Positions 23,513 through 41,253 of a DNA stretch of 41,253 nt are shown here, in pieces. The stretch spans positions 1 to 41,253 of the forward strand of contig JAJYLH010000036.1 of NCBI GenBank assembly GCA_021787845.1, given 5' to 3'. The position numbers and the translations under genes were made by a program. The notes under the pieces are model-generated. The model was not told where the DNA came from. It searched no databases and was given only the letters and a program-made list of their open reading frames with translations. The stretch's first letter is position 1, and each line of letters begins with the position of its first letter. Source of the stretch: Myxococcales bacterium. GTDB lineage: Bacteria; Myxococcota; Myxococcia; Myxococcales; JAJYLH01.

Positions 23513-26500
23513 TCAGAACCCGCCCGCCTGGGCGAAGCGCACGAGCGACGAGGCGCCGGCCTCCGTCGACAGCGCAAAGAGGTAGCCCTGCACCAGGGCG
23601 AGACCGGTCGGCTTGTCCAGCGCCGCTTCTGGAGAGTAGCCGGTCAAGAGCGGGGTGGTCGCCAGCGTTCCGTCCGCCGGGTTGATCAGGGTGACCATCC
23701 CGCCGCCGCTCCCGCTCGACAGCGTCACCGCGACGCCCGCATTCGTCACCGCGCAGCCGCCGATGCGCTGCCCGTCGACGTCGCCCGTGTACACCGTCGT
23801 GACCGCGTCGGTCGACGGATCGATGTGCACGAGCCGCACGAAGGTCTTGGTCCCGTCTCCGCTGGGGGCATAACCGGTGCCGTAGAGCGTCCCGTCGCGC
23901 GGGTTGACGCACAAGCTCGTCAGCCGGGTGCGGCTGAGCGTCTGGCTCGTCGGGTCGGCGACGACGGTGGCGTTCGCCAGGTCGGTGATTTCGCGGCTGA
24001 AGTCGAGCGGCTGGCCGAGCTTCCAGACCGTGCTCGACAGGTGGCCGTAGGTGCCGTTCGCCCCGGGCTGGGGGCCGCTCGTCGCGTAGAGCGCGCCATC
24101 GGTGCCGAGCACGACGCCGTCGAAGCGGTCGGTCGCCGAGGAGACGCTGACGAACCGGTCGTCGGTCCCGCCGCCGTTCTCGTCGAGCCCGCGCGTGCGG
24201 ACAATCGCCATCGTCGAGCTCGAATCGGCCTCGACGGTGGTGAAAGCGATGCCGGCGGTCAACGCCACCCCTGCCGGCGAGCTGAAGCCGGTGAGCGGGT
24301 GCGCTTGCCCCAAGCCGTAGCTCCCGCTGCGGGCGAAGAGCGCAATCGCCGCGTCGCCGCCCGCGTCCTCACTCGCCAGGACCAGGTCGCCCGCCGCGTC
24401 GGCCGCGAGCGCGTCCCCCTTGGCGATCGAGCCCTCCGCCTTCAGGATCGCGCAGCGGTTCAGGTTGGAATTTGCCGGCTGGTACGACTGGTTTCCGCTC
24501 GCGTCCGGGTCGACGCACCAGCCGCCGGTTGCCCGCGAGAGGTTGCCTTTCAGGTCCGCCGCGGCGAAGTTCGCCAGGACCTCCCCCCGCGTGAGCCGAC
24601 CGGAACCGCTGACGCACAGGTCCTCGGTGAAGCTGGCGCTCGCCTGCGGGAAGGCGAGAACCGGCGCCGGGCTGAACGGGTCGGCTGCGCCGCTCGCCTG
24701 GAGCCAGACTTGCCCGACGGAGGACGGGTCGCTCGCCTGAACGACGAGCACACCGCCGCCGTTGCCGCCGCAGGCGGTCGGATCCGGCGGCCAGGTGGCG
24801 ATGGTCGGGTCGCCGGTCGGGTTCTCGAAGGAGAGCGTCGGGCCGGTGGTGTCCGGCGGGGCGCTGACCACCACGGTAGCGCTGTCGGTCAGCGTGTTGG
24901 AGCCCGAGGTGACCGTCGCCACGAGCTCGTAGGTGCCCGCCGCGGACGGAGTCCATGACGAGCCGGAAACGCTCGCGTCGACCGCCGTCCCGCCTTGCAT
25001 CACGGCGACCGTCGGGGTTCCGCCGGCGGCGTTTCCATAGGCGTCGTCGACCTCCACGGTGAACGCGACGGGCGTGCCGACATCGGCGGTCGCGCGCGCG
25101 AGGGAAAGATGAACCGCCGTCGCCGCTCCCGCGGTCACGGTCAAGGTCGCGTTCGGGTCGCTCGGGTCGTTGACGATGTCGGTGCCGACGACCTGCGCGA
25201 CGAGCAGATAGGTTCCGGGCCGGATGAGGTCGTAGATGACGCCGCCCGAGACCTCGGGTCCCGGCGGCGTGACGACCGTTCCATGAGTGGGGAGGACCGC
25301 CTGGGTGACCGCCGCATCGGCGATGGTGTTTCCGTAGCCGTCGGTCACCTGGTAGGTGAACGGCGGCGTCGACCCGGCCGGCACCGTGCGGGCCGAGCCG
25401 GAAGCGATGGTGATGGCGTTGGGCGCGGCCGGCGTCACCTCGAGGCCGGCGGTCACCGGCGAGAGCGCCGACCCCGGCGCGGTGGGCGCGGCGCGGACGG
25501 TGAGCTGACCCGCGCGCAAGGGCTTGATCGTCTTCGCGGTGGTGTCGACGACGTAGTCGCCGTGGCCGGGATCCTCGTTGTCGATGGAGAGCAGGAGCCC
25601 GTCCGCGGTCTGGTTCCCGTACGGGTCGATCGCCTGCGCGCTGTAGGGCACCTTCTGCCCCGCCTCGACCTGGGGGTCCCCGAGGGAGAAGGCGATGGCG
25701 GTCGCCTTCGCCGGCAGCACCTGGAAGCTCTGCTCCGCCGCGAGGCTGGAGTTCGCCAGGCCCGCGCGCACCGTGTAGGAACCGGCCTTCGTCACCCCCT
25801 GGATGGCGCTCCCATCGAACAGGCCAGGAGCGTCGGTGGTCACCACCAGCGCTGCCGGGATGCTGTTTCCGTACTGGTCGGTGAGCGACGTCGTCACGGT
25901 GACCGCGTTCTCCGGGTCGGCCACCACCTGCAATCCGGGGAGCGACCCGTCGGCGTCGGTCCCGGTCAGCTCCAGCGAAAGGGTCTTCGGCGCCGCCGGA
26001 TCCACCATCACCGGCGTGGTCGCCACAAGCGGCGGGTCGAGCCCGGTCACCGTCGCGGTCAAGGTCTGCGCCCCCGCCTTCGTCACCGTCGCCTCGTTCT
26101 GCGTCGGGTCGTAGGTCAGCGTCGAATCGGACGACGTGAGCTTCACGGTAACGCCGCCGGAGAGCGACACCGCGTTGCCGTACGCGTCGGTCACCGGGGT
26201 CGTCACCTGGAACGGCTCGCCCGCGGTGACGGTCGCCGGCGCGTCGATCGCCACCTTGGCCGGCGCGCCCGCCTCGACGTTCACGGTCGCCTCCCCGCTG
26301 ACCGCCACCCCGCCCGCCGTCGGCGCCCCGGTCACCGCCGCCACCACCGTGAAGGTGCCGGGCACCCGCAGGTCGGTGATCCGGGTTCCGGCCACCAGGG
26401 CCCCGGGAGCGTTGGTGAAGAGCTGCACCGGTACCGTGACCGGGTTCTGGCTCTGGTCGGCGATGGTCACCTCCGCGATCACGTCCGTCCCCGCGGTCAC

Positions 26501-27256
26501 GTCGAGCGAATCGGACGGGCTGCCCGAGCCATCCGCGGCCTTCAGCTCGAGCTTCAAGCTGGAAGCGGGCCCCGCGCTGACGACGAAGGTCGTCGAGTCC
26601 GAGAGGTCCGGCGCGTCCTTCAGGGTCGCGGTCACCGTCCCCACGCCGACCTGGGTGAGGCCGGTGAAGACGACGTTCGCGGTTCCCGCGGTGTCGGTGC
26701 TCGCGCTCTTCGTGGCGGTGGAAACGCCGGAGAGCACGAAATCGACCTCGCGTCCGTCGAGCTTCATCCCCTCGACGCCCGGCGCGAGCTGGGCGGTCAC
26801 GTTGAGGCTACCCGCACCGCTCCCGGTCCCCGCGGTGAGGTCCGGGTTCGCGACCGACACCGTCAGCCCCTGCGGCTCGTCGGTGTAAGTGACGACGAGG
26901 GTCGCTTTCGGGCTCGTGTTCCCGGAAGCGTCGGTGGCGGTCAGCGTGAAGGTGTTCTCGCCCTGGGCGAGGCCGACGTCCGGGTAGACGAACCGCGCGG
27001 TGTACGGGTCGGCCGTCTGGTCGGCGGGCGCCTTCTGCCCTCCGAAAGCGGTATCGCTCGTCAGCTCGAGCTTGGCGCCGTACTCGGCCGAGCCGGTGAG
27101 GGTGATCTGGGGCAGCCGCGAGACCACCGGCGCCTGCGCGGCGAGGTCGAAACGCGGCGCGGCGGGGGGCGTCGTGTCGGCGTTGAGGCAGCCGAAACCG
27201 GCGCCGAAGAGCGCGGCGAGCGCCATTCCCATCACCCACTTCGACTGAGACCCCAT
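23513..27256 (-). CDS. Large secreted protein with about eight Ig-like domains and a propeller-like C-terminus
   Basis: The 1247-residue protein starts with a signal peptide (MGMALAALFGAGFGC); Cys23 may be lipidated although GFGC is an imperfect lipobox. Residues of about 27-130 look like a bacterial Ig-like domain with a DASGNTSP motif. About seven further domains of roughly 95 residues follow to about residue 800, several with the Big_1-type signature (VTDAYGN, LTDQYGN, VTDGYGN, VDDAYGN). The last 450 residues lack this motif; they have repeated short blade-like segments (DGTLYGTGYAP, GVALTAG) suggesting a beta-propeller. The start at 27256 has GGAG nine bases upstream. It follows the outer-membrane protein gene by 29 bases, so the pair is probably co-expressed at the cell surface. 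No enzymatic motif was seen. Confidence 0.85.
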   Translation of the reverse strand: MGSQSKWVMGMALAALFGAGFGCLNADTTPPAAPRFDLAAQAPVVSRLPQITLTGSAEYGAKLELTSDTAFGGQKAPADQTADPYTARFVYPDVGLAQGENTFTLTATDASGNTSPKATLVVTYTDEPQGLTVSVANPDLTAGTGSGAGSLNVTAQLAPGVEGMKLDGREVDFVLSGVSTATKSASTDTAGTANVVFTGLTQVGVGTVTATLKDAPDLSDSTTFVVSAGPASSLKLELKAADGSGSPSDSLDVTAGTDVIAEVTIADQSQNPVTVPVQLFTNAPGALVAGTRITDLRVPGTFTVVAAVTGAPTAGGVAVSGEATVNVEAGAPAKVAIDAPATVTAGEPFQVTTPVTDAYGNAVSLSGGVTVKLTSSDSTLTYDPTQNEATVTKAGAQTLTATVTGLDPPLVATTPVMVDPAAPKTLSLELTGTDADGSLPGLQVVADPENAVTVTTSLTDQYGNSIPAALVVTTDAPGLFDGSAIQGVTKAGSYTVRAGLANSSLAAEQSFQVLPAKATAIAFSLGDPQVEAGQKVPYSAQAIDPYGNQTADGLLLSIDNEDPGHGDYVVDTTAKTIKPLRAGQLTVRAAPTAPGSALSPVTAGLEVTPAAPNAITIASGSARTVPAGSTPPFTYQVTDGYGNTIADAAVTQAVLPTHGTVVTPPGPEVSGGVIYDLIRPGTYLLVAQVVGTDIVNDPSDPNATLTVTAGAATAVHLSLARATADVGTPVAFTVEVDDAYGNAAGGTPTVAVMQGGTAVDASVSGSSWTPSAAGTYELVATVTSGSNTLTDSATVVVSAPPDTTGPTLSFENPTGDPTIATWPPDPTACGGNGGGVLVVQASDPSSVGQVWLQASGAADPFSPAPVLAFPQASASFTEDLCVSGSGRLTRGEVLANFAAADLKGNLSRATGGWCVDPDASGNQSYQPANSNLNRCAILKAEGSIAKGDALAADAAGDLVLASEDAGGDAAIALFARSGSYGLGQAHPLTGFSSPAGVALTAGIAFTTVEADSSSTMAIVRTRGLDENGGGTDDRFVSVSSATDRFDGVVLGTDGALYATSGPQPGANGTYGHLSSTVWKLGQPLDFSREITDLANATVVADPTSQTLSRTRLTSLCVNPRDGTLYGTGYAPSGDGTKTFVRLVHIDPSTDAVTTVYTGDVDGQRIGGCAVTNAGVAVTLSSGSGGGMVTLINPADGTLATTPLLTGYSPEAALDKPTGLALVQGYLFALSTEAGASSLVRFAQAGGF

Positions 27257-27285: not shown

Positions 27286-29172
27286 CTAGAAGGAGACGAG
27301 ATAGCCGCCCGTCAGCGCCGATGCCGACACGACGGCCTTGGCGAGCTGGGCGAGGTTCTTCAGCCCCGCGACCGACTCGGTGTGGCGCACCTCGAAGACG
27401 AAGGAGCCGATGCCCGCCTGCAGCCTCAGGCCCACCTCGGCCGTCACCCCCAGCGTCGCGCCGAGCGACTGCGCTTGCGGCAGGCTGAAGCGCTGGAGGG
27501 AAGTGCTGGCGAGCCCGCTGGCGAATGCGAGGCCGGCGTAGGGCGAGACCCCTCCCGGTCCCCACGGCTCCCAGGTGAAGCCCAGCTCCATCGGGATGAG
27601 GGTGGTGTTCTGGTAGAAGCTCCCGAGGCCGTGGCCGGGGTCGATGCCGGTCCAGCTCCCGGAGAGGAGCGAGTAGCCGCTCGTGAAGACCACCCGGAAG
27701 TTCGGATGGCCCTGCTGGGAGAGCCGGTAGCCGAGCTCGACGAGGTAGAGCCCCTGCCCGCCCTTCAGGTCGCCGCGGGCGAGCGCAAAGCCCGCCTGGG
27801 CGCCGATTTCCATCGCGCCCAGCTTCGGCGGCGGGCCCGGACGGACCGCGGCGAGGCGGCGCCGCCGATGCCAGCGACGCCCGGGGTGCGGCCGGGGGGA
27901 AACCGGAGGGGGCGACAACGTCGGGCTCGGCAGGGTGGCGACGAAGGTCGAAGGCGGCGGGACCGCCGGCGGAAGGTGGGGCGCAGGGGTCTCGGCTGGC
28001 GGAAGCGGCGTCGCTGGGGGCGCGGCGGGCGTCGTCGCGACAGCGAGCGGCCCCGAGCCTGGGGGCGGCGTCGGGGCGGCGGGGGCGAGGCCGAGGTCGA
28101 GACCGCCGCTCGGCGGCGCGGGATTGGCCGGAGCGGCGGGAGAAAGGCCGAGGTCGAGGCCGCCGCCGGAAGGCGCGGGGGTCGGGTTCTGCGGCGCCGC
28201 CGAGGCGAGGCCCAAGTCGAGGCCGCCGCTCGCGGGCGGCGACGCGCTCGGGGCGGGGGCGCCGGGCGCGGCGAGACCGAGATCGAGCCCGGAGCTCGCG
28301 GGCGGCGCGGCGGGCGCGGATTTCGCCGGAGCAGGAGCGGGCGCGGCGGAGGCGAGACCGAGATCGAGACCGCCGCTCGCGGGCGGGGGCGTGCTCGGGG
28401 TCGGCGCGGCGGGGGCGGCGAGACCGAGGTCGAGCCCGGAATTCGTCGGCGGCGCGGCGGCCGTGGTTTTCGCGGGAGCCGGCGCGGCGAGGCCGAGATC
28501 GAGACCGCCGCTCGCAGGCGTGGGCGTGCTCGGGGCCGGCGCGGCGGGGGCAGCGAGACCGAGGTCGAGCCCGGAGCTCGGCGGCGGCGCGGCTGGCGGC
28601 AGGTCGAGGTCGGCGGCGAGGTTACCGGCCGGTCGAGGGGGCGGCGAGTTGGAGGCGATGGGGCCGAGCCCCAGGTCGAGACCGAGCCCGCCGGGGGCCC
28701 GGCGGGCGTTCTCGAACACCACCGTCGCTGGGTACGGGACCGCTGGCGGCAGCCGCAGCTCGAGGGAGTGGGTGCCCGCCCGGATGAGCAGCAGGATCGG
28801 AATCGGCTCGCTGGGACGGGTGCGGTTGCGCCGCCGGGGCCGGTAGTCGAGCCGCGCCTGCGCCCTCGGCGACAGCGCCTTCACCTGCTGCGCCTGGTCG
28901 AGCGCCACCATCACCCGGACCGTGCCCGGAAACTCGTGGCCGTGGACATAATCCTGAAAATAAAGCAATCGGAGGACGCCCGGCCCTTGGACGTTGGCGG
29001 CGAGGCTCCGGCCCGGCTTGAGGACGAACCCCCGGTAGCGGTGCCCGGGTCCGACGATGGTGGCGTGGGGCGGCTCCGGTCCCGCAAGGGAATAGCGGAC
29101 CGGCTCGGCTTGCGCGGCGAGCGCGGCCAAGCAGAGAGCGAGCACGCCGCCGGATGTCGCGAAGGAGCGCAT
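27286..29172 (-). CDS. Outer-membrane beta-barrel protein with nine LDLGL motifs
   Basis: The 628-residue protein has a signal peptide (cleavage probably after AAQA, near residue 22). A globular N-terminal domain extends to about 165. A low-complexity Ala/Pro region to about 440 carries nine copies of (S/G)GLDLGL or GLGLDLGL spaced every 20-35 residues, plus one degenerate DLDLP. A Pro/Arg-rich spacer follows. The last 180 residues alternate like beta-barrel strands, beginning MEIGAQAGFALARG and ending in a terminal Phe (GGYLVSF), as needed by the BAM machinery. The start at 29172 directly precedes the signal peptide. The gene for the multi-Ig protein follows after 29 bases. The regular short motif suggests multivalent binding to a partner; the partner is unknown. 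Confidence 0.85.
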   Translation of the reverse strand: MRSFATSGGVLALCLAALAAQAEPVRYSLAGPEPPHATIVGPGHRYRGFVLKPGRSLAANVQGPGVLRLLYFQDYVHGHEFPGTVRVMVALDQAQQVKALSPRAQARLDYRPRRRNRTRPSEPIPILLLIRAGTHSLELRLPPAVPYPATVVFENARRAPGGLGLDLGLGPIASNSPPPRPAGNLAADLDLPPAAPPPSSGLDLGLAAPAAPAPSTPTPASGGLDLGLAAPAPAKTTAAAPPTNSGLDLGLAAPAAPTPSTPPPASGGLDLGLASAAPAPAPAKSAPAAPPASSGLDLGLAAPGAPAPSASPPASGGLDLGLASAAPQNPTPAPSGGGLDLGLSPAAPANPAPPSGGLDLGLAPAAPTPPPGSGPLAVATTPAAPPATPLPPAETPAPHLPPAVPPPSTFVATLPSPTLSPPPVSPRPHPGRRWHRRRRLAAVRPGPPPKLGAMEIGAQAGFALARGDLKGGQGLYLVELGYRLSQQGHPNFRVVFTSGYSLLSGSWTGIDPGHGLGSFYQNTTLIPMELGFTWEPWGPGGVSPYAGLAFASGLASTSLQRFSLPQAQSLGATLGVTAEVGLRLQAGIGSFVFEVRHTESVAGLKNLAQLAKAVVSASALTGGYLVSF

Positions 29173-33228: not shown

Positions 33229-33272
33229 CGGATCGGACCGATCCGACGGATCCGACCGATCGGTCCGATCGG
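33229..33272. repeat. 10-bp-periodic palindromic array behind rpmA
   Basis: About four units of the type GATCGGACC / GATCCGACC run head to tail with 10-bp periodicity; subunits such as GGATCGGACCGATCC (33230-33244) are inverted repeats. It begins 21 bases after the rpmA stop. Similar arrays lie near 36161-36200, 39530-39570 and 39860-39900. Confidence 0.75.
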
Positions 33273-39480: not shown

Positions 39481-39593
39481 GGCGAGCGGCGACGTCGCAT
39501 CCGACGGGCGTTCCGGGCAGCCCCCCGATGTCCGATCGGACCGATCGGACCGATCCGACCGATCGGTCTGATGGCCTGCGGTTTTCTGCGGGC
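39471..39593. repeat. Direct repeat, copy 1
   Basis: This 123-bp segment, which includes the last 10 bases of the activator gene and a decamer palindromic array (about 39530-39570), is repeated nearly identically at 39802-39922 (121 bp, a short indel and a few substitutions). The two copies flank the inverted-repeat element at 39660-39800. Confidence 0.85.
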
Positions 39594-39659
39594 TCGAGCC
39601 GCGGGCGTCAGCCCGCGGGAGCCGCCCGACGAAACCTGGACTGGGCGACGCCCGCCAAA

Positions 39660-39800
39660 TTGGAGCCGGACACGTGAGTGTCCGGGTGCAGGCAGTGCCA
39701 TTGCCGCTTGGCTCGCCGTTTCGGTGGCCGCAGCGATTTCGGCTCATCGTGATCGACGATGGCACTGCCTGCACCCGGCCACTCGCGTGTCCGGCTCCAA
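39660..39800. mobile_element. MITE-like element with 42-bp terminal inverted repeats
   Basis: The ends 39660-39701 and 39759-39800 are inverted repeats matching in 40 of 42 positions, starting TTGGAGCCGGACACG and containing GGGTGCAGGCAGTGCCAT. The 57-base centre shows no coding potential. A diverged relative lies at 19525-19660. No target-site duplication of a few bases is obvious. Such a non-coding palindrome could be moved in trans by a transposase elsewhere. Confidence 0.75.
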
Positions 39801-39801
39801 C

Positions 39802-39922
39802 GGGCGCGTGAGGCGCGGCGGCGTCGCATCCGACGGGCGTTCCGGGCAGTCCCCCGATGTCCGATCGGACCGATCGGACCGATCCGACCGATCGGTCTGA
39901 TGGCCTGCGGTCTTCTGCGGGC
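39802..39922. repeat. Direct repeat, copy 2
   Basis: The second copy of the segment at 39471-39593. It starts one base after the inverted-repeat element and contains its own decamer array. It carries a copy of the last bases of the activator gene (GGGCGCGTGA) without the gene. It lies 35 bases before the stop of the coiled-coil gene. Confidence 0.85.
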
Positions 39923-41054: not shown

Positions 41055-41058
41055 GAGC

Positions 41059-41253
41059 TCGACGAAGCCGTCTCGGGGGCAAGAATCGGGATCGTCGCCT
41101 CGACGAAGCCGTCTCGGGCGCCAGAATCGGGATCGTCGCCTCGACGAAGCCGTCTCGGGCGCCAGAATCGGGATCGTCGCCTCGACGAAGCCGTCTCGGG
41201 CGCCAGAATCGGGATCGTCGCCTCGACGAAGCCGTCTCGGGCGCCAGAATCGG
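41059..41253. repeat. 41-bp tandem repeat at the window edge
   Basis: Units start at 41059, 41100, 41141, 41182 and 41223; the fifth is cut by the window end. The first unit has two substitutions and the rest are identical. The unit begins TCGACGAAGCCGTCTCGGG. 41 is not a multiple of three, so a coding role in one frame is unlikely unless the period-3 product (123 bp) is used. Confidence 0.95.

Follow-up and report, generated by a model that had tools for sequence, protein, structure and literature searches.

An apparently lineage-specific GLDLGL array in the linker of a predicted two-domain outer-membrane protein

Introduction

Pro/Ala-rich periplasmic spacers, such as those of TonB and some OmpA-type linkers, link a globular domain to its envelope anchor in a flexible, extended form. 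Outer-membrane barrels with an even number of strands normally have both of their ends in the periplasm. Repeated short motifs in disordered linkers have been the subject of much work in eukaryotes, whereas bacterial envelopes have received little attention in this respect, and we know of no Pro/Ala-rich envelope linker in which a hydrophobic core recurs as it does here.

The window analyzed in this study is a stretch of 41,253 nucleotides from a Myxococcales bacterium that belongs to a poorly sampled family. It encodes P0001, a 628-residue protein whose linker recalls the spacers mentioned above. The C-terminal part of P0001 is similar to OMP_b-brl (PF13505) proteins, with a barrel-like domain of about 180 residues that ends with a Phe; P0001 differs from these proteins by an extended N-terminal part that contains a separate domain and a linker. 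Our literature search found nothing relevant on the GLDLGL motif or on proteins of the P0001 type. A motif array in one lineage of a family that otherwise lacks the motif, combined with measurable constraint on the motif core, could show the birth of a linear motif by tandem duplication. It concerns a single gene in a single genome, with a linker that is variable in relatives, and by itself alters no established picture.

Results and Discussion

Overall architecture of P0001

The P0001 gene occupies positions 27286..29172 of the minus strand, from an ATG start to the stop codon included, and is present in a single copy according to a full-length search of the whole genome. The open frame has a GC3 of 0.87 against a GC2 of 0.64, and the reading frame is supported by the C-terminal domain, which in that frame has homologues in other families. 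All features of P0001 given below lie on the same strand. Residues 1-22 (29107..29172) read as a signal peptide, with a predicted cleavage site AAQA|EP. They are followed by an N-terminal β-sandwich-like domain of about 140 residues (about 23-162; 28687..29106), which is delimited by homology and by an AlphaFold2 single-sequence model. A linker of about 270 residues (about 163-431; 27880..28686) was assigned from its composition, 27% Pro, 22% Ala, 13% Leu and 11% Gly. In the translation, an Arg-rich stretch, RRWHRRRRLAAVRP (27838..27879), joins this linker to the C-terminal domain (27286..27837). The original prediction of a low-complexity Ala/Pro region between an N-terminal domain and a barrel-like C-terminal domain thus agrees with the architecture read from the sequence.

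Modelled alone from its single sequence, the N-terminal domain is all β, with a pLDDT of 63 and a pTM of 0.61. It has no match in Pfam or NCBIfam and no sequence match in the PDB. Foldseek comparison of the pLDDT 63 model with carbohydrate-binding modules gave a best E-value of 0.014, and VIA-align Z-scores did not exceed 6.5, values that common arrangements also reach; we take this as a weak hint that the domain might bind carbohydrates. The domain is shared with two proteins from other genomes, G008 (E-value 5e-6) and G004 (E-value 1.6e-8). Since it occurs both in the G008 protein and in the barrel-less G004 protein, it is a module. In the G004 protein (contig C32, 4700-5641), the domain and an Ala/Pro linker are followed by hydrophobic segments that replace the barrel. 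Two further matches, both with E-values of 0.006-0.007, were rejected: the one in G104 lies opposite a better frame, and the one in G051 contains stop codons.

The C-terminal domain is probably an outer-membrane β-barrel. Neither P0001 nor its isolated barrel domain matches PF13505, and P0001 matches no Pfam family whatever. One other member of A2, a profile built for this domain, matches PF13505 with an E-value of 1.7e-5, which, together with the terminal Phe and general knowledge of such proteins, suggests the barrel assignment. With regard to the eight-stranded fold of PF13505 barrels, the single-sequence model of the domain had a pLDDT of 33 and did not fold without an alignment. As both ends of even-stranded barrels are periplasmic, the linker would more likely be located in the periplasm than at the cell surface.

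The GLDLGL array and its growth

The linker contains nine exact copies of GLDLGL (28087..28683), which begin at residues 164, 201, 223, 246, 268, 295, 317, 338 and 357, or with first bases at 28683, 28572, 28506, 28437, 28371, 28290, 28224, 28161 and 28104, respectively. Nine copies at 20-35-residue spacing had been predicted; the number is correct, and the measured start-to-start spacings (37, 22, 23, 22, 27, 22, 21 and 19 residues) span a slightly wider range of 19-37. When the linker residues were shuffled 20,000 times, the LDLGL count never rose above two. A damaged tenth copy, AADLDLPPAAP, is visible in the translation between copies 1 and 2 (residues 186-196; 28585..28617).

The alternation of hydrophobic residues in L-D-L-G-L might suggest that the repeat units fold together as a small β structure of stacked strands, and thus form a structural repeat instead of a linker. 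We consider this very improbable: such a fold would be poorly supported by strands of five residues with 13 or more residues, most of them Pro or Ala, between them, and the motifs are unequally spaced.

Tandem Repeats Finder identified a 147-bp repeat (28192..28598, family D4) with 2.9 copies and an 82% match. Each 147-bp unit is a dyad of one type A and one type B module, and hence carries two GLDLGL motifs. The type A copies (2, 4 and 6) are 82-89% identical in DNA among themselves and the type B copies (3, 5 and 7) 73-87%, values that exceed the 60-75% identity between A and B copies. It follows from this pattern that a module of about 22 residues was duplicated first and that the two-module unit was multiplied later. 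DNA identity among the copies is far from complete, and the array therefore did not expand recently. It grew by old tandem duplications, after which the core was retained.

Homologues of P0001 and a conserved gene pair

A scan of genome contigs with whole P0001 found no relative. The homologues described here were found with domain queries and with the C-terminal-domain profiles A2 and A3, searched in 146-147 genomes of the class, nearly all from the same order, among which the family of this bacterium is represented by its genome alone; both profiles include P0001, and their searches are not independent for this protein. This analysis revealed four close homologues with E-values of 1e-67 or better (A3), above a broad background of barrel-like proteins at 6e-16 or worse. 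Three of them belong to three other families of the order (G001, G008 and G109) and the fourth, a paralogue encoded on contig C6, comes from the genome of P0001 itself. The barrel domain also matched G001 in a single-sequence search (4.6e-8), and G008 (1.9e-8) and the C6 paralogue (1.1e-5) by blastp.

Conservation of LDLGL among homologues, which the original prediction had proposed to examine, was not observed: the motif was found neither in the linker nor elsewhere in any of the four proteins. Their linkers are much shorter than that of P0001, Ala/Pro-rich in G001 and G008 and Lys/Arg/Pro-rich in G109 and the C6 paralogue. In the latter two, no N-terminal domain resembling that of P0001 was seen. 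The length and composition of the linker differ widely among homologues, so LDLGL does not belong to the function that the family conserves. With the motif missing from the four closest relatives, the array is a repeat specific to this lineage, as opposed to a conserved site of binding. The C6 paralogue (L051, 4514-5584) has a strongly basic Lys/Arg/His/Pro linker ahead of the same barrel, and basic stretches are also present in the G109 protein and, directly before the barrel, in P0001.

Immediately downstream of P0001, the gene at 23513..27250 (minus strand) encodes a product with a lipoprotein-type signal (..GFGC..) and Ig-like repeats; "lipoprotein" and "Ig-like" are labels from our reading of the sequence, and the product has no Pfam match. 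In blastp comparisons with the partner genes of G001, G008, the C6 paralogue and G109, its best E-values were 1e-43, 7.5e-15, 1.5e-39 and 2e-30, respectively. At all four loci, a barrel gene is thus followed by an adjacent Ig-like-repeat lipoprotein gene homologous to the partner in the window, and this gene pair is therefore probably ancestral. The four pairs (L016, L018, L052 and L051) share with the window pair the homologous barrel and the adjacent homologous lipoprotein gene, and differ from it by their shorter linkers without LDLGL, two of which are Lys/Arg-rich.

Constraint on the motif core

Divergence was measured on codon-aligned units, between copies inside one gene of one genome. 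The core and the spacers have diverged synonymously to the same extent (dS 0.75 and 0.79, respectively), whereas amino-acid divergence is nearly confined to the spacers (dN 0.43 versus 0.016 in the core, a value that is itself an artefact of path counting between leucine codons). The resulting dN/dS ratios are about 0.02 for the core and about 0.54 for the spacers. In the nine intact copies, the core has undergone at least eight synonymous changes and no amino-acid change. A simple binomial calculation on these changes, counted by hand from the codon table, gives a P of about 6e-5, or about 0.009 when the changes of the damaged copy are added; it overstates the case, as it takes no account of codon bias or of the ancestry shared by the copies, which were moreover recognized by the motif itself. 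For the same reason, the low dN of the core is partly due to ascertainment. We regard these values as moderate evidence that selection keeps the GLDLGL core within P0001. They bear out the original claims of a core constant at the protein level, with variable intervening sequence and changes between repeats that are synonymous in the core. Copies identical in DNA, which had been named as the mark of simple expansion, were absent; since the core changes are synonymous only and the core dS equals that of the spacers, a simple recent expansion is excluded.

The array could also be a by-product of unequal crossing-over in a neutrally expanding spacer; the identity of its core would then reflect no more than limited divergence and the use of the motif to define the copies. 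The tandem 147-bp structure would fit such a process, as would the widely variable linker length in the family and the homologues that manage without the motif. We consider it the less likely reading, given that the core matches the spacers in synonymous divergence with almost no amino-acid change, yet a serious rival, since the copies are recognized by the motif.

Occurrence of the motif outside P0001

A degenerate DNA pattern for GLDLGL matched seven other sites of the genome, all of them single, compared with 8 matches in all for the reversed-pattern control. Five of the seven were inspected, and each contains one motif in an unrelated reading frame. No second motif-repeating protein was found in the genome by this pattern scan with its five inspected matches. 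Among 146 relatives, a paired LDLGL pattern occurred only in the P0001 gene and at three unrelated places. The same paired pattern gave at least 118 stretches in a scan of 84,980 genomes. Those inspected among the stretches listed consisted of low-complexity runs of LDLGL/LDLDL, of antisense-like frames or of pairs that arose by chance; an Ala/Pro array like that of P0001 was not among them.

These results weigh on the possibility that GLDLGL is a dedicated docking peptide, the specific ligand of one putative periplasmic or surface receptor, presented in many copies for avidity. Such a role would account for the core constraint, and a spacing of about 20 residues leaves room for several bound partners. 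It appears doubtful with the motif missing from all four close homologues and with no second motif-repeating protein found in the genome. We hold it equally doubtful that the array is a newly evolved, lineage-specific periplasmic docking motif by which one disordered tether of the outer-membrane protein would gather multiple copies of a single envelope partner. Of the originally proposed selection for a binding motif, the constraint on the core within P0001 is thus retained, and the conserved binding motif is not, as the homologues lack LDLGL.

Proposed role of the linker

We give somewhat better than even chances to a length-variable periplasmic spacer of a two-domain outer-membrane protein, in which modules expanded in one lineage and GLDLGL was kept as a weak repeated contact. 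P0001 would be exported and its C-terminal barrel seated in the outer membrane, with the N-terminal β domain hanging in the periplasm by the flexible Ala/Pro linker. The linker would act as a spacer that is free to vary in length and sequence across the family. In the lineage of P0001, it was lengthened by tandem duplication, at first of the module of about 22 residues and subsequently of a 49-residue module pair, and selection would then have retained the GLDLGL of each module. The hydrophobic-acidic segment would most likely provide a weak repeated contact, as a "sticker" or docking peptide, and the candidate contacts are GLDLGL itself, the N-terminal domain, the partner lipoprotein or another envelope protein.

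Other features of the window

The divergent neighbor of P0001 (29333-31558, plus strand) encodes TPR repeats that precede a periplasmic-binding-protein domain (PF13458), an order that presumably resembles that of LpoA-type activators of penicillin-binding proteins. Short tandem arrays of a 9-bp near-palindromic unit, CCGATCGGA, are located at 33231-33272, 39532-39566 and 39861-39895. A two-unit pattern with at most one mismatch matched the whole genome 352 times (179 forward and 173 reverse; one site can be counted twice because the unit is near-palindromic) and the reversed control gave 0 matches. The arrays belong to a repeat family that is dispersed across this genome. Those at 39532 and 39861 have near-identical surroundings (39500-39920) and are separated by an inverted repeat, TTGGAGCCGGACAC...GTGCAGGCAGTGCCAT and ATGGCACTGCCTGCAC...GTGTCCGGCTCCAA; this region may represent a small element that is mobile or was duplicated. 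Finally, the window starts with 31.8 copies of a 9-bp repeat, GTTCGACGG (1-286), and ends with 4.8 copies of a 41-bp repeat at 98% (41058-41253), and these terminal repeats may be points of assembly breakage.
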